Shown: positions 3,383-26,938 of the stretch, in pieces
Layout: each line of letters starts with the position of its first letter
How positions within the stretch are numbered: the first letter of the stretch is position 1
Source: Fidelibacterota bacterium
GTDB taxonomy: Bacteria > Fidelibacterota > Marinisomatia > Marinisomatales > TCS55
Reading direction: 5' to 3'
Assembly (NCBI GenBank): GCA_004124385.1
Contig: SCKN01000001.1
Location: forward strand, 278,606-342,605
Length of the DNA stretch: 64,000 nt
Position numbers and translations under genes: made by a program
Notes under the pieces: generated by a model
The model's database searches: none
What the model was told of the DNA's origin: nothing
What the model saw: the letters and a program-made list of their open reading frames with translations, nothing else

Positions 3383-4315
3383 CTAGGAGTGTCCCTCTTC
3401 TTCTAAGAAGCGTTCGGCATCTATGGCAGCCATACAACCCGTACCAGCCGCAGTTACAGCTTGGCGGTAATAAGAATCTTGCACATCTCCGCAGGCGAAA
3501 ACGCCGGGATGTTTAGTGGCTGTACTACCGTTTTCAGTGACAATATATTTTTTCTTGTCTAACTCCATTTCATCTTCAAACAGGCTTGTATTGGGGATGT
3601 GTCCAATTGCCATAAAAACTCCATCACATGCTTCTTCACGCGATTCATTGTTTGTCGTATCTAACAACGTAACACCGCTAACACCAGATTCTACTGTACC
3701 ATGAATTTCTAAAATGGTCGAATTCCAATGAAAGTGAATCTTGGGATTATCAAATGCACGTTGCTGCATTATCTTTGAAGCACGTAATTCATCTCTACGG
3801 TGAACAATCCATACTTCAGAAGCAAACTTGGTTAAAAATGTTGCTTCCTCCATAGCGGAATCACCGCCGCCTACAATAAGCACTTTCTTGTCTTTATAGA
3901 AAAAACCGTCGCATGTAGCGCAGGCAGAGACGCCGCGCCCCATGAGTCTAGTCTCTGCTTCGAGACCTAATAACCGGGCTGTCGCACCGGTAGCAATAAT
4001 AACGGTATCAGTAGAATATTCTTCATCAACCACCCATACTTTGTAGGGACGTTGATTGAAGTCTACTTTTGAAACATGCTTAAAGTGGCATTCAGCGCCA
4101 AAGCGCTGGGCCTGTTTACGAAAAAGGTCCATCAGTTCTGGACCCATAATACCATCAGGGAATCCGGGATAATTTTCCACATCAGTGGTTATTGTTAATT
4201 GTCCGCCAGGCTGGCTACCTTCAAAAACAAGAGGTTTCAGGTTCGCTCTAGCTGCATAGACTGCTGCCGTGAGTCCGGCAGGTCCGGATCCAATGATGAT
4301 GACCTTACGATTCAT
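3383..4315 (-). CDS. trxB: Thioredoxin reductase (NADPH, FAD)
   Basis: A 310-residue flavoprotein that passes electrons from NADPH to thioredoxin in the cytoplasm. Seen: N-terminal FAD-binding [16 protein letters not shown] (9-24), redox-active CATC (Cys132, Cys135), NADPH-binding [10 protein letters not shown], and the C-terminal FAD motif [15 protein letters not shown]. Length is normal for low-molecular-weight TrxB. The gene starts 11 nt after the trxA stop, so the two form a single thioredoxin system operon. Confidence 0.96.
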
Positions 4316-21298: not shown

Positions 21299-22927
21299 CT
21301 ATTTGATCAAAACTCCTTTTACAACTTTTATTTCATTCTCAAATTTCATTTTAAAATAGTAAATACCCGTAGAAACTTTTTCTCCTGACCACGTAATTGA
21401 ATATTCACCGGGAGCATGAAATTCGTTCACAACTTCATCTACACTTTCACCTCTAATGTTAAAAACATTTACTTTTACAATGCCCTGCTTCGTTAGTGAA
21501 TAGTGCAAAGTCGTCTGGGGATTAAACGGATTGGGATAAAGGGATTGTATTGCAAAATAGTTTGAATTGATTAATTCATCGTCAATTGATTCTACAATAT
21601 AATATGTAGATAAATCAAACGTATCACTTTCTGTAAAATAATGCAAAGTGGCATCGGAAATTCCGGGTAACACACTATTAAGATAACCTGCGTATCCATC
21701 AGGGAATGCATCCAAAATATGTGCATAATTTGATACTGTCATTAAGCCATTTTCATTAATTGAGACTGAACAATTATCATCTAAATAAAAAGCAAATTTA
21801 GGAGGATCAGAAACAATCCCGTACAGTCCGCCGATAATACGGTTCGGGAAATAATAATAATCAGTCCACATTTTTGGAATAATAACCACATCCGGCACAC
21901 TCGTATCACCTACGGTTGTACCTAACCCGCCATACCACCAATTGTCCGAATCTCCTGTAATTCCTGTAACAATAATTTCACCATAATTCTCACTGCTTTG
22001 ATTTGATCCGTTAATCGTTAAATCAGAATAATTATTAAGATATTCGTAGGGCATTTCATAATAAGACATATTCTCACCGGGGTCTACTAAAACTCGATTA
22101 TCAATATCATACACTGCGCCATGAAGCAGCTGATGAAATTTCAAGTGCGTAAATCGCAGCGGTTCAGCCGGCACGCAGTATAATTCTGTATCATCAGTTT
22201 GGTGAATGACTGTAATCATTTTACCATAAACGGTGCCGATCCTGTCTTGATCTATGCAAAATGCAGTTTTGATTCCCATCCCCAATCCTAAAATATCTTC
22301 GCCATGATCTTGGGCTCTCCTGGCAACCATCGTAACCAATCTCCCCAGTCGTCCACGGTCATTGAAATGGGAATCTGTGAGAACGCCTGAAAGTATATCT
22401 AAAAAATCGTCTGTAAATGAAATCCGGGGATGATACGGATTTGCTATGGCTTGATCCGATGTTAATGATCCATTCTCCGCATCAAACACGATTCCTCCTA
22501 AAATGGCCAATCCGGCGCTCGTACCGCCAATGACTCCGCCATTATTGAACACCACATGAATAGCAGAATCAACCAATGTTCCTTTCCATGTCTGTACATA
22601 ATCCCATTGGTCACCTCCCTCAATAAAGATACCATCAGCTGTAACTAGATCATGATATACATTTTGACTATTTGCCGAAAATATGTTGGGAATTTGTAAT
22701 TCATGACTGGATGAATCTGCACCCAGATTAATAAAATATGCCGGATACCAATCACTGGCTTCAGACACATCTATATTTACAATTTTACCTGAATCTGCCT
22801 GTTGTACAAACCAGCCGTAAGGATCATCTGACCAGCCACCGTAACTTTCGGCATTTCCCCCCACAAGCATGACAGAACCTTGGGCAGATAAACGAGTCAT
22901 TAAATAAAAAAGATAAAATTTCCTCAT
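21299..22927 (-). CDS. Cyanophycinase-like S51 peptidase with T9SS sorting domain
   Basis: A 542-residue secreted protein. After a short signal, residues 17-260 look like peptidase S51/cyanophycinase: VMLVGGNAE, FIEGGDQW, nucleophile elbow GGTSAGLA with Ser137, and the family segment DSHFNDRGRLGRL. The last 80 residues are a T9SS type A sorting domain (LYPNPFNPQTTLHYSL, then TGIYYFKM), so the enzyme is exported to the surface or medium. Extracellular cyanophycinases release Asp-Arg dipeptides from cyanophycin; other S51 members are dipeptidases, so the substrate is open. It is coupled to serC by ATGA. Confidence 0.87.
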   Translation of the reverse strand: MRKFYLFYLMTRLSAQGSVMLVGGNAESYGGWSDDPYGWFVQQADSGKIVNIDVSEASDWYPAYFINLGADSSSHELQIPNIFSANSQNVYHDLVTADGIFIEGGDQWDYVQTWKGTLVDSAIHVVFNNGGVIGGTSAGLAILGGIVFDAENGSLTSDQAIANPYHPRISFTDDFLDILSGVLTDSHFNDRGRLGRLVTMVARRAQDHGEDILGLGMGIKTAFCIDQDRIGTVYGKMITVIHQTDDTELYCVPAEPLRFTHLKFHQLLHGAVYDIDNRVLVDPGENMSYYEMPYEYLNNYSDLTINGSNQSSENYGEIIVTGITGDSDNWWYGGLGTTVGDTSVPDVVIIPKMWTDYYYFPNRIIGGLYGIVSDPPKFAFYLDDNCSVSINENGLMTVSNYAHILDAFPDGYAGYLNSVLPGISDATLHYFTESDTFDLSTYYIVESIDDELINSNYFAIQSLYPNPFNPQTTLHYSLTKQGIVKVNVFNIRGESVDEVVNEFHAPGEYSITWSGEKVSTGIYYFKMKFENEIKVVKGVLIK

Positions 22928-23991
22928 GTATAATTCTGCATTGCATCAACCAATGCTTCCACACCTTCTTTTGGCATGGCATTATAAATAGACGCTCTAA
23001 AACCACCTACAGATCGGTGACCTTTTAGAGTCAATAAACCACGTTCAGTGCAATAATTTAAGAAGTGTGGTTCATCTCCTCCATTGGCAAAAATAAACGG
23101 TACATTCATTAAGGAACGATCTTCCACTAAAATGGGACTTGTAAAAAGAGGATTGCGTTCTATTTCATCATAAAGGAATTTTGCCTTGGACTTATTTTGC
23201 ACATGCATTGATTCTACTCCGCCCAATGCCTTCAGCCAGTGCAATGTTCTGTTAACAACGTAAATTGCAAATACAGGCGGTGTATTAAACATGGAATCTT
23301 TGTCAGCGTGAATAGCAAAATCCAGCATGGCGGGGAGGTCACGTCCGGATCTTCCAATAAGGTTATCCCGAATAATGACCATGGTCACTCCGGCAGGTCC
23401 CATGTTCTTTTGGGCACCGGCATAAATCACTCCAAACTGGCTTACATCTATTGGGCGACTGAAAATATCCGAACTCATATCCCCTACCAAAAATCCATTG
23501 GCTTCAGGGAATTTTTGCCATTGAGTACCATAAATCGTATTATTGGACGTTACGTGCAGATAGACTTGATCAGTACTTTGTTTAAAGTCTTTTTGAATAT
23601 GATTATAAACTGATTCTCTAGAAGAGCTTACCACATTTACATTTCCATAACGCTGGGCTTCTTTTATAGCTTTTACGGACCAAACACCTGTTTCCGTATA
23701 ATCAACAGTTTCTCCATCTTTGAGTATATTCATGGGAATCATGGAAAACTGAAGACTGGCTCCGCCCTGTAAAAATAAGATTTTGTAATTTTCAGGAACA
23801 TTCAACAATTGGCGAATCAGTTGACGTGTTTCTGTAACCATATCCACAATGGGAGCAGACCGATGACTCATTTCCAGAATACTCATGCCATGTCCATCAT
23901 AATTCACAGCTGCCTCGGCTGCCTGTTTTAGGACGTCTTCCGCCAATACTGCCGGCCCCGCACTGAAGTTGTATATTTTTTGCATTTCCAT
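22924..23991 (-). CDS. serC: Phosphoserine aminotransferase
   Basis: A 355-residue class V PLP aminotransferase for serine synthesis (3-phosphohydroxypyruvate to phosphoserine). Family start KIYNFSAGPAVL, LFLQGGASLQF, and PLP Lys195 in YAGAQKNMGPAG. ATG at 23991 or 23985 are both possible. It is the first gene of the serC-cyanophycinase-YiiX-uvrC run, preceded by a terminator of the upstream operon. Confidence 0.95.
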   Translation of the reverse strand: MEMQKIYNFSAGPAVLAEDVLKQAAEAAVNYDGHGMSILEMSHRSAPIVDMVTETRQLIRQLLNVPENYKILFLQGGASLQFSMIPMNILKDGETVDYTETGVWSVKAIKEAQRYGNVNVVSSSRESVYNHIQKDFKQSTDQVYLHVTSNNTIYGTQWQKFPEANGFLVGDMSSDIFSRPIDVSQFGVIYAGAQKNMGPAGVTMVIIRDNLIGRSGRDLPAMLDFAIHADKDSMFNTPPVFAIYVVNRTLHWLKALGGVESMHVQNKSKAKFLYDEIERNPLFTSPILVEDRSLMNVPFIFANGGDEPHFLNYCTERGLLTLKGHRSVGGFRASIYNAMPKEGVEALVDAMQNYT

Positions 23992-24088: not shown

Positions 24089-25057
24089 TTACGGTCTAAT
24101 TATTCGATATGGCAGTGACCACACAGCCGTATTATATCCCCCATCACTTATGAACAATGTGGCATTATCAATTAAATCATAGTGCATATTGAAAACTCGC
24201 CTTTGATGATTCGGACGAATAGTATGAGCCCGCCATAATTTTGTAAAAACATTATCATCAGCATTAACATCACCAAATACACCGGCGTCATTCAAGCGCC
24301 TGCGAGCCCGTTCTCCACGTCCCCTACCATAATGCATAGCAACTCTTTCTCCACTATCTATATTACCCATGTCGAAAACAGGATCATCATTTTCTACTGT
24401 TAGTTCAATGCGCAGTGTATCGCCGGGATTAAAAGCGGGAAGATCATTCCTGGGAATGAATACTTCACTTGCATTATCGGCTGTATAATTAAAGAGTGCA
24501 TCCGTTCCGTTAAGAGTATAAAAGGACAAACCAGTAATTCTTACTTTATTGCCAGCACCTCCATAACCAATTGTTATTCCTTCAATTCTCCAAGGGCGGT
24601 TACTGCTGCTGTCTGTGCGAACAAAACGTATTCGTCTTTCAAATTCTTCAGAAAATGCCTTTACGAATGAGTCCACCATTGTATGGTTAGAATCGAACGC
24701 AATCACATAAAAGTTGCCACTCATGGAGCGGTGCATTTCTGCGTAAGCTGTATCATCCTGAACGTCAAAAGTGAAAGTTCTTTCACGGTCGGTAATGTGC
24801 CTGCCAAAACGGAGTCTATATCCGGAATGAGGCCAGAGCGTATCTGCCATGGTTTTCATTCCGCCATCAATATCTAATCCATCGGAATATTCTTCATCCA
24901 TGGCACCTTCTGTGTTGAGTATATCCGTGTTTAGTATTACATCATTTTCCAATAACTTCATTAGTTGTGAAATTTCATCTTTTTCTTGATCGTGAATATC
25001 AGCACACGACATCCATATCAAGCTGACTGCTGTTAAAATGGGTATATATTTCTTCAT
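24089..25057 (-). CDS. Lipoprotein of unknown function, last gene of the ECF sigma operon
   Basis: A 322-residue protein with a lipoprotein signal and lipobox WMSC (about Cys18). I do not recognise the family. The mature part is acidic at first (residues 20-70) and then mostly beta strands; a stretch FNPGDTLRIELTVENDDPVF looks like a beta-sandwich, and GRGRGERARRRLNDAGVFGD followed by VNADDNVFT resembles the substituted cleavage-like or Ca-loop sequence of some surface proteins. It lies 23 nt downstream of the Spy-like gene and before a strong terminator. It may be an envelope output or an accessory of the sigma system. Confidence 0.75.
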   Translation of the reverse strand: MKKYIPILTAVSLIWMSCADIHDQEKDEISQLMKLLENDVILNTDILNTEGAMDEEYSDGLDIDGGMKTMADTLWPHSGYRLRFGRHITDRERTFTFDVQDDTAYAEMHRSMSGNFYVIAFDSNHTMVDSFVKAFSEEFERRIRFVRTDSSSNRPWRIEGITIGYGGAGNKVRITGLSFYTLNGTDALFNYTADNASEVFIPRNDLPAFNPGDTLRIELTVENDDPVFDMGNIDSGERVAMHYGRGRGERARRRLNDAGVFGDVNADDNVFTKLWRAHTIRPNHQRRVFNMHYDLIDNATLFISDGGYNTAVWSLPYRIIRP

Positions 25058-25080
25058 TTTATTTTTCCTTTATTATATTA

Positions 25081-25572
25081 TTACCAACGATCTCTTTTGT
25101 GACGTCGGTTTCGTGATTTTTTATGTTTTTTAATATTATCTTTTGCCTCACGACGCATTTTATGAGGTGCGATCATTAGTTTAGCTCTTTGAGTATTTGT
25201 TAACGTTCCATCTAAACTTTTGATAAATGCAATTTTATCATTTATTTTTTGTTGTTCCAATCTTTCAAACGTCATTAATGCATCATTCAGAACACTTTCT
25301 GAAATATCTTTACTCTCTTTTAACGATTCAAAAATGGGTTTAAGCGATTCTTTACCTTCTTCTCGAAGCTTTTCCATTTTTTCCTGTTGAGCTCGAAATT
25401 TAGGAAAGAATTTTTCTGCTTGTTCTTCTGATAGCTCAAGTTCTTCTGTTAATTTCCAAATATTCATTGTTTTCATGTTTTTTCTATCACTTTTATCCCA
25501 ATCACCACGTGGGGGCTGGGCTATCATCATCATTGGAATTAACAAAATATAAGCTATGAATAATTTCTTCAT
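25081..25572 (-). CDS. Spy/CpxP-like periplasmic protein with basic tail
   Basis: A 163-residue secreted, almost all-helical protein. The signal peptide is about residues 1-18 (MKKLFIAYILLIPMMMIAQ). The pattern ELELSEEQAEKFFPKFRAQ and then GTLTNTQRAKLMIAP, each a turn followed by an LTxxQ-like helix start, is that of the Spy/CpxP/CnrX group. The C-terminus is strongly basic (KKHKKSRNRRHKRDRW). Such proteins chaperone periplasmic proteins or sense metals or misfolding and tune a regulator; CnrX does this for an ECF sigma factor. Here it follows the putative anti-sigma gene with a 4-nt ATGA overlap. Confidence 0.78.
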   Translation of the reverse strand: MKKLFIAYILLIPMMMIAQPPRGDWDKSDRKNMKTMNIWKLTEELELSEEQAEKFFPKFRAQQEKMEKLREEGKESLKPIFESLKESKDISESVLNDALMTFERLEQQKINDKIAFIKSLDGTLTNTQRAKLMIAPHKMRREAKDNIKKHKKSRNRRHKRDRW

Positions 25573-25967
25573 AACTTTATCTCCTTTTCATTAAATGCAT
25601 ATTCATATTCTTCTTCTTCAAAAAATTCTAGTATAGCCCACACATCATCATCATCCAATAAATATAGAGCCATGTCTGCAATATACATATCATAATCACT
25701 CGAATCAATTTCACTAAAATATTCATAATTATCTTCATAACTATAATATTCAACAAATTGAGTATTAAATATTGTATCGTTTAATTGTGAATATGACGCC
25801 CATCCGAATATCAAAAGGAATGCAGCAGTTATCATGCTGCTTTGAAAGCGTGTTCTTTTCAAATCTAATTGGTGTTGTGCAGCATGCATCCTGCCGATGA
25901 ATTTTCCTTCATCGATTGTAGAAACTTCAGTTTTTAAAGCATTTTGTAATCGGTCTTCAAATTTCAT
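25569..25967 (-). CDS. Putative anti-sigma factor, single-pass membrane protein with acidic outer domain
   Basis: A 132-residue protein: cytoplasmic helical segment (1-43), one transmembrane helix (about 44-62, SSMITAAFLLIFGWASY), then a C-terminal part very rich in Asp, Glu and Tyr. It has no clear zinc-binding anti-sigma (HxxxCxxC) motif. The role is inferred from position: it overlaps the end of the ECF sigma gene by 11 nt and precedes a Spy-like gene, the arrangement of CnrY-type anti-sigma factors. The acidic outer tail could bind the basic tail of the Spy-like protein. Confidence 0.65.
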   Translation of the reverse strand: MKFEDRLQNALKTEVSTIDEGKFIGRMHAAQHQLDLKRTRFQSSMITAAFLLIFGWASYSQLNDTIFNTQFVEYYSYEDNYEYFSEIDSSDYDMYIADMALYLLDDDDVWAILEFFEEEEYEYAFNEKEIKL

Positions 25968-26484
25968 AAATTTCTTTCAGCCATCCACGTAATTTATTAA
26001 TTCCATGGTGATAATTCACTTTTGCTGTTCCTTCGGACATATCTAATATTAATCCAATTTCCTTAAAAGGTAACTGCTGATTCAAACGCATCATAACCAC
26101 ATTCCGTTGTTTTCCCGGTAATTTAGCAACATGAGCCCAGATGTCTGATTTACTAATACGTGGTTCTTCATGTGAAAACGATTGTTCTGGCACTTGATCA
26201 AGGTGTAGAAAATTACGCCATTTATTTCGTGTAAGATAGGAATTAGCTGTATTGATTTTTGCCCTGTATAAATAGGTAGTAAATTCTGCTTTAAAACGAA
26301 AAATTTTAAGGCTTTTAAATAATTTAATGAAAACAGATTGTGATAAATCTTCTGCTTCCATTTCATCAATTGTGATACGAACAAAAAATCTGTAAACCGA
26401 GTCCAAGTGACGTTTAACCAATTCGTCAAAGGCTGACTGGTCTCCTTTTTGAAATAGTCGTATGAGTTCATGGTCTGATTTCAT
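25957..26484 (-). CDS. ECF RNA polymerase sigma-70 factor
   Basis: A 175-residue group IV sigma factor. Region 2: DQSAFDELVKRHLDSVYRF, then EAEDLSQSVFIKLFKSLK (the DLxQxxF core). Region 4: KLPGKQRNVVMMRLNQQLPF, then KEIGLILDMSEGTAKVNYHHGI, a helix-turn-helix for the -35 element. It directs RNA polymerase to stress genes, very likely including its own operon. Start MKSDHELIRLFQKGD. First gene of a four-gene operon. Confidence 0.93.
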   Translation of the reverse strand: MKSDHELIRLFQKGDQSAFDELVKRHLDSVYRFFVRITIDEMEAEDLSQSVFIKLFKSLKIFRFKAEFTTYLYRAKINTANSYLTRNKWRNFLHLDQVPEQSFSHEEPRISKSDIWAHVAKLPGKQRNVVMMRLNQQLPFKEIGLILDMSEGTAKVNYHHGINKLRGWLKEIYEI

Positions 26485-26610
26485 TCATTTACACCGTAAG
26501 ACACGATAGTCACCGGAAAGGTTAAAAAATATTTTACTTATTTTAAAGAATAAAACAGTTTGTTTGGATTTTTGTAAAATCTTTCAGAAACATATTTTTA
26601 CATACTTCAA

Positions 26611-26763
26611 TTACCCCGTCATTTATGGCGGGGTGAGGCAACACATAAAAATATTGGGCTTTAGCCTAAAATCTTGTAGATATCTTTATTCATATATTAT
26701 CGTGTTGGGATAAATCCCTTTTTAGTGTTGATAAGAGTAACCCCGCCATAAATGACGGGGTAA
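26611..26763. repeat. Inverted-repeat element with 24-bp perfect arms
   Basis: Arms at 26611-26634 and 26740-26763 are exact reverse complements (core ACCCCGCCATAAATGACGGG) separated by 105 nt that themselves hold small palindromes such as GGGCTTTAGCC and GGGATAAATCCC. It lies in the 454-nt gap between the sigma factor gene (26484) and the helicase start (26939), the only gene-free stretch over 300 nt. No open frame is inside it; target-site duplication is not obvious. The remainder of the gap is AT-rich and must hold two divergent promoters, which I cannot pinpoint. Confidence 0.85.
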
Positions 26764-26938
26764 ATGTTTTTGATTTGGATTCAGTCTAAATGGAAAACTT
26801 TTCCAAGATTATTCAAAATGATTTGAATTATACATCTATTTGCAGATGGATTTAGAGAAGAGTATCTTTATTGAAGAAATTATATAAAACACAAAATTAT
26901 TGAAAGAAACATACTTCTTGCATTCGTTAATTTCGACT

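Follow-up and report, generated by a model that had tools for sequence, protein, structure and literature searches.

The kind of regulatory system described here is already known, with CpxP/CpxA, CnrYXH and SigAb-AabA-AabB as its closest examples, and what is new is a variant whose anti-sigma factor has lost its zinc domain. The sigma gene stands last in the published CnrYXH order, and the ligand pattern of CnrX, a His-rich metal site, is used below for comparison. CnrYXH of Cupriavidus combines a periplasmic helical sensor with a membrane anti-sigma factor, CnrY. CnrY is described as a class II anti-sigma factor with a short cytoplasmic grip of two helices, which resemble the first and fourth helices of class I (PMC7406223). 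SigAb-AabA-AabB of Acinetobacter consists of a sigma factor, a small single-pass anti-sigma factor (AabA, 107 aa) and a secreted protein, encoded in that order, as in the window, by overlapping, autoregulated genes; both AabA and AabB have anti-sigma activity, AabB is predicted to fold round the outer end of AabA, and CnrY-like wrapping is predicted for the system (PMC12153292). The Spy-fold protein CpxP holds the histidine kinase CpxA by polar contact, its basic surface being proposed to hold the acidic outer part of the sensor, and salt or misfolded pilin releases it (PMC4160245). E. coli Spy likewise is described as binding its clients through a basic surface (PMC8144458).

The window, by which we mean the whole stretch of 64,000 nucleotides that was analysed, lies in a Candidatus Neomarinimicrobiota genome of 2.09 Mb in 11 contigs and contains a four-gene operon (Table 1) that we read, with a probability of about 0.6, as an autoregulated envelope-stress circuit in which a CpxP-like Spy protein brakes a short-grip anti-sigma factor. 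A sequence-only reading of the window had already given the four open reading frames with their coordinates and strand, as well as the overlaps of 11 and 4 nt that link the first three genes, and all of this agrees with the ORF coordinates. Its comparison with CnrYXH stands in that ECF, anti-sigma and Spy-like genes share an operon and CnrX is among the top structural matches of the Spy-like protein, but the order of the genes differs. The operon also differs from CnrYXH in having no CnrX-type metal-ligand pattern, and in a short anti-sigma factor that derives from the zinc type. SigAb-AabA-AabB is copper-responsive, its likeness to the operon is one of description, and neither zinc-type relatives nor stepwise shortening is among the features described in the excerpted text (PMC12153292). 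In CpxP-CpxA the partner is a histidine kinase, whereas in the window it would be an anti-sigma factor, and it is the C-terminal tail that is basic. The class I zinc anti-sigma factors (zf-HC2, Hx3Cx2C) of deep Neomarinimicrobiota share with the window protein a homologous stretch that begins at the juxtamembrane helix and runs to the very end, but the zinc bundle is absent in the window's class. The gene next after the operon (22924-23991) encodes an aminotransferase of class V that looks serC-like by eye, and in several genera most loci keep the same neighbour after the operon; a 27-nt inverted repeat (26608-26634 and 26740-26766, 96% complementary, arms 105 nt apart) lies between the sigma gene and a UvrD-like gene.

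Table 1. Features of the operon, with positions in the window.
Feature	Position	Strand	Basis or remark
Predicted autoregulatory ECF promoter, TTTAACCTTT-N14-GTCTTA	26497..26526	minus	ends 12 nt before sigma start codon
ECF sigma factor, 175 aa	25957-26484	minus	Pfam/NCBIfam match and sigma tree
Anti-sigma factor, single-pass membrane protein, 132 residues	25569-25967	minus	
Anti-sigma cytoplasmic part, residues 1-43, without zinc motif	25839..25967	minus	alignment and hhalign
Anti-sigma transmembrane segment, residues 44-62	25782..25838	minus	hydropathy maximum
Anti-sigma acidic outer part, residues 63-132, and stop	25569..25781	minus	22 D/E, 2 K/R
Spy-like secreted helical protein, 163 aa	25081-25572	minus	AlphaFold2 model
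Basic C-terminal tail (30 aa) of Spy-like protein, net charge +11	25084..25173	minus	charge count
Lipoprotein, 322 aa, fourth gene	24089-25057	minus	starts 23 nt past Spy-like gene

We found the arrangement of the first three genes to be kept well beyond the window. A search with the anti-sigma factor gave a match in 34 of 40 family genomes, representing all 8 genera, and the order sigma, anti-sigma, Spy-like was present at 32 of the 35 loci in these 34 genomes, the other three being cut by contig ends. The Spy-like profile matched 156 of 199 genomes and 64 of 76 genera of the phylum, mostly once per genome. Among 60 loci from the rest of the phylum, chosen by hand from the listed profile matches and in most cases the only one of their genus, a sigma gene lay just upstream in 57 (none was seen in 3, one of them at a contig end) and both partners were present in 54, with a middle gene encoding one hydrophobic segment; in nearly all phylum loci the Spy-like gene overlaps the sigma/anti-sigma pair or sits a few nt from it. 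A Spy-type match was found in 5 of the 40 loci L155-L194, and loci of KSB1, two Bacteroidota and Candidatus Zymogenus carry a sigma gene, a zinc-type anti-sigma gene and a Spy-type gene, so that the arrangement as such is not confined to the phylum. The sequence-only reading had treated all four genes as one unit, and in relatives this holds for the first three, but the lipoprotein does not regularly take the fourth place. Within the family it occurs in 10 of 40 genomes (g1, g4 and g5), always directly past the Spy-like gene. Of the 60 phylum loci, 22 have it as the next gene, 1 has it in second place and 10 have it further on; 24 lack it, and 3 could not be assessed. The four-gene order is thus common, not fixed. 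The deep lineages frequently have, in place of the lipoprotein, another Spy-type gene directly behind the first, and two of three such genes tested exceed the Pfam cut-off for PF13801 or PF07813.

Where the fourth gene is present, its description as an unknown lipoprotein is borne out: all 15 relatives examined share Cys18, and no Pfam or NCBIfam family was matched at the limits used. Its predicted structure (pLDDT 75.1) includes a long-stranded sheet and a part that resembles an Ig-like sandwich; Foldseek likened a part of it to the RhoGDI-like Ig sandwich (E 1.2e-4, TM by target about 0.43-0.57), and comparison with PDB sequences gave no sound relative. At locus L033 two tandem lipoprotein-like genes of 310-350 aa (644-1648 and 1783-2754) lie upstream of the sigma gene, and such tandem genes occur also in g3, g6, g7 and g8, where the downstream lipoprotein is missing; each of them has a weak LTXXQ match, below cut-off.

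The assignment of the first gene to the ECF sigma factors proved sound, with regions 2 and 4 both above the Pfam cut-off within its short length (Sigma70_r2 PF04542, 49.9 bits against a cut-off of 24, E 2.9e-13; Sigma70_r4 PF04545, 35.6 bits, E 6.7e-9) and 85 bits for the NCBIfam model TIGR02937 sigma70-ECF against a cut-off of 42.9. Sigma factors from 64 operons across the phylum form one group (SH-aLRT 88) that includes none of 36 further ECF factors; the closest sigma factor outside the group is that of L155, which is adjoined by a zinc-type anti-sigma gene and a Spy-like gene. Upstream of the sigma gene we found a motif with the consensus TTTAACYTTT-N13/14-GTCTWA, with a -35 element of AAC type, for which the strict search form allowed N12-15. 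The strict motif precedes the sigma gene at 26 of the 32 family loci that have upstream sequence, 11-14 nt from the start codon, and the other six show a near match by eye; across the phylum loci it is upstream in 28 of 53, as compared to 39 of 6922 control stretches (0.56%). In the window genome the only strict match is the one before the sigma gene, and the reversed control gave none. Because the motif is conserved upstream of the sigma gene and, in the window genome, found only there, the circuit is probably autoregulated, and we regard the conservation as strong evidence for this. The leader is predicted to be very short, the sigma start following the -10 element by 11-14 nt (window 26485-26500 and equivalents), and an out-of-frame ATG stands 4 nt ahead of the sigma start in nearly all family loci.

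Over the 40 family genomes, strict matches numbered 46 as compared to 7 in the control. Twenty-seven precede the operon sigma gene (for one of these the contig end cuts the gene off), and one more is a tandem site upstream of the sigma gene in genome G011. Six, in 6 g6 genomes, precede a small basic secreted protein, and two, in 2 g4 genomes, a similar one; these proteins have an LTxxQ-like stretch, with profile support that is good in g4 and weak in g6, where the three proteins tested had no Pfam support and the Spy-like label comes from that stretch by eye. The remainder fall at an upstream lipoprotein (1), TonB-like receptors (3, Pfam-backed in 2), another lipoprotein (1), a 168-aa secreted protein (2), a 407-aa secreted protein (1), a DNA-polymerase-delta-like gene, so named by eye (1), and a contig end (1). 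Since the control gave 7 matches in these 40 genomes against 19 non-sigma matches, individual ones, for instance those at the three TonB-like receptors or at the DNA-polymerase-delta-like gene, may be due to chance. A wider regulon in the window genome was rejected, as a relaxed promoter pattern matched 2 sites versus 9 in the control; that no target besides the operon was seen there with this pattern counts against the circuit we propose.

The anti-sigma factor matched no Pfam or NCBIfam family at the limits used, and in a comparison of its profile with the PDB, made with homology to CnrY in view, no anti-sigma chain was matched at E <= 1. The sequence-only reading had seen no zinc motif in it, and Hx3Cx2C is indeed absent, by eye, from the window protein and the other 35 family rows; it is absent also from all 33 rows of families f2-f18, which represent the order and class of the window, but present in 16 of 21 rows of the deep lineages (families f19-f29), where zf-HC2 exceeds the Pfam cut-off in 4 of 6 anti-sigma factors tested. 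Profiles of the short and the zinc-type forms nevertheless align with each other (hhalign probability 96.3, E 1.5e-9, 116 columns), from the juxtamembrane helix, which in the window protein lies within residues 1-43, to the C-terminus, leaving the zinc part unmatched. The cytoplasmic part measures 71-96 aa in the zinc form (n=16), 33-45 aa in a second set (n=34) and 22-28 aa in families f16 and f17 (n=4), which to our knowledge would have the smallest anti-sigma grips known. On the sigma tree (68 rows, quick tree) the change between the forms requires 3 steps, and on the same tree a single clade of zinc-less forms was rejected (p-AU 0.00017).

The alignments and the sigma tree indicate that the zinc domain was lost within an orthologous family and that the short form did not arise separately as a CnrY-type protein; loss is the simplest direction because the zinc form occurs also in L155 and in other phyla. 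One could go further and suppose, tentatively and at somewhat less than even odds, that an orthologous ECF circuit found across the phylum shows how a zinc-type anti-sigma factor was taken apart step by step, from 71-96 through about 40 to 22-28 aa. The shortest forms would then retain little beyond one juxtamembrane helix, and control of the sigma factor would have been handed from a zinc bundle to a single helix together with a Spy-like partner outside. By analogy, the short form of the window could work like the two-helix grip of CnrY, and the CnrY type itself could be a product of such erosion. Locus L033 has an extra ORF (3758-4144, plus strand) between its anti-sigma and Spy-like genes, which opens with a signal peptide of Spy type and then runs into the membrane segment and acidic part of the anti-sigma factor, as if a tandem copy had recombined.

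The opposite charges noted in the sequence-only reading are real. We took as the outer part all residues past the most hydrophobic 19-residue stretch; in the window these 70 residues have a net charge of -20 and include 10 Tyr, and the family alignment shows a conserved DDxW and FxDE stretch there. Of 50 further genes in the window, not one falls to a net charge of -13 or below over its C-terminal 69 aa, and only one reaches at least +8 over its last 30. All 36 family rows have an acidic outer part, as do all 54 phylum rows (-8 to -23 in the latter), and the Spy-like tail has a net positive charge in 51 of the 54, at least +5 in 45 of them. Direct contact between the two tails as the sensing step, as had been suggested, is a plausible conjecture. 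Charge covariation, considered as proof of such contact, was rejected: across independent pairs it was not significant (median p 0.625), which counts against the reading we favor, and within the family there was no correlation (rho 0.07), a Spearman coefficient of -0.44 over the 54 phylum rows being uncorrected for kinship. In f18 g38, g39 and g41, moreover, the Spy tails carry -3, 0 and -3 while the outer parts remain at -21, -14 and -13, an observation that speaks against tail contact and against the reading we favor. The missing covariation, and an outer part that keeps its acidity even opposite a non-basic Spy tail, are what one would expect if release were of the RseA type, with a protease or an envelope defect reading the outer part, the Spy-like protein being output only and the charges incidental; plain outputs would also account for Spy-type and other envelope proteins behind the same motif elsewhere. 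However, the Spy-like gene is tied to the sigma/anti-sigma pair more tightly across the phylum than an output needs, it adjoins that pair also in the KSB1 and Bacteroidota loci, and the outer part holds the conserved DDxW...FxDE stretch, so we consider RseA-type release unlikely.

The identity of the Spy-like protein bears on a further possibility, namely that, as in CnrX, it binds a metal ion and signals this to the anti-sigma factor. Its best Pfam match is the heavy-metal resistance family PF13801, although below threshold (15.3 bits, cut-off 29.2), followed by PF07813 (12.5 bits, cut-off 24.3); failure to reach the curated cut-offs of the Spy/LTXXQ families counts against our preferred reading as well, and among 20 family Spy-like proteins scanned, 17 match PF13801 at E <= 1 (best 0.00013). 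The AlphaFold2 model is of fair quality (mean pLDDT 80.4, pTM 0.63), with four helices (27-45, 49-85, 92-119 and 126-162). CnrX chains are among its top Foldseek matches with probabilities of 0.84-1.00 but E values of 0.08-0.83, and in VIA-align unrelated coiled coils reach the same Z of 8.3, with no clear leader, so that the likeness of the modelled fold to CnrX is suggestive only; this, too, counts against the reading we favor. A phmmer search of the PDB with the protein gave nothing sound, and its profile matched only STV (5ihf/5io8, E 7.5e-4). In the alignment of 33 family rows, an HxxxH pair occurs in only one, Cys is found at most twice in any column, and the single frequent His column (28 of 33) has Gln in the window protein; nor was a metal transporter seen in the operon. 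Because the His pattern is absent, CnrX-type metal sensing was rejected as the main reading, and we regard it as very improbable.

We thus return to a CpxP-like brake on a short-grip anti-sigma factor as the best explanation, because gene order and promoter are kept, Spy-type proteins lie behind the motif elsewhere, deep lineages have an additional Spy-type gene, the charges are opposed, and CpxP and AabB provide precedents. Under such a circuit, the sigma factor would be kept at the membrane by the single-pass anti-sigma factor through a cytoplasmic grip of about 40 residues, the remnant of the zinc type. In unstressed cells the secreted Spy-like protein, sitting on the acidic outer part, would hold the anti-sigma factor in its holding state, as CpxP does with CpxA, until unfolded envelope proteins or salt pulled it off; the anti-sigma factor would then release the sigma factor, whether by conformational change or by proteolysis. 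The freed sigma factor would transcribe from the consensus motif before its own operon, yielding more Spy-like chaperone for repair, more anti-sigma factor for resetting, and an envelope lipoprotein. Of this, the gene order, orthology, conserved promoter, predicted topology, charges and loss of the zinc domain come from the analysis itself, whereas the binding of sigma by the short domain, the contact with the Spy-like protein and its chaperone activity, the stress signal and the mode of release are inferred.

In the open-licence literature we found no paper on an ECF/Spy-like/anti-sigma system, or on an ECF factor, in Marinimicrobia, although with that scope the absence is weak evidence. As far as the open literature shows, this would be the first envelope-stress circuit described for an uncultured and widespread marine phylum, and its promoter motif can be used for target prediction. 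The anti-sigma factors of the phylum form a natural series on which one can ask what minimum of such a protein still holds a sigma factor, and whether part of the control can be assumed from outside the membrane by a chaperone of Spy type.
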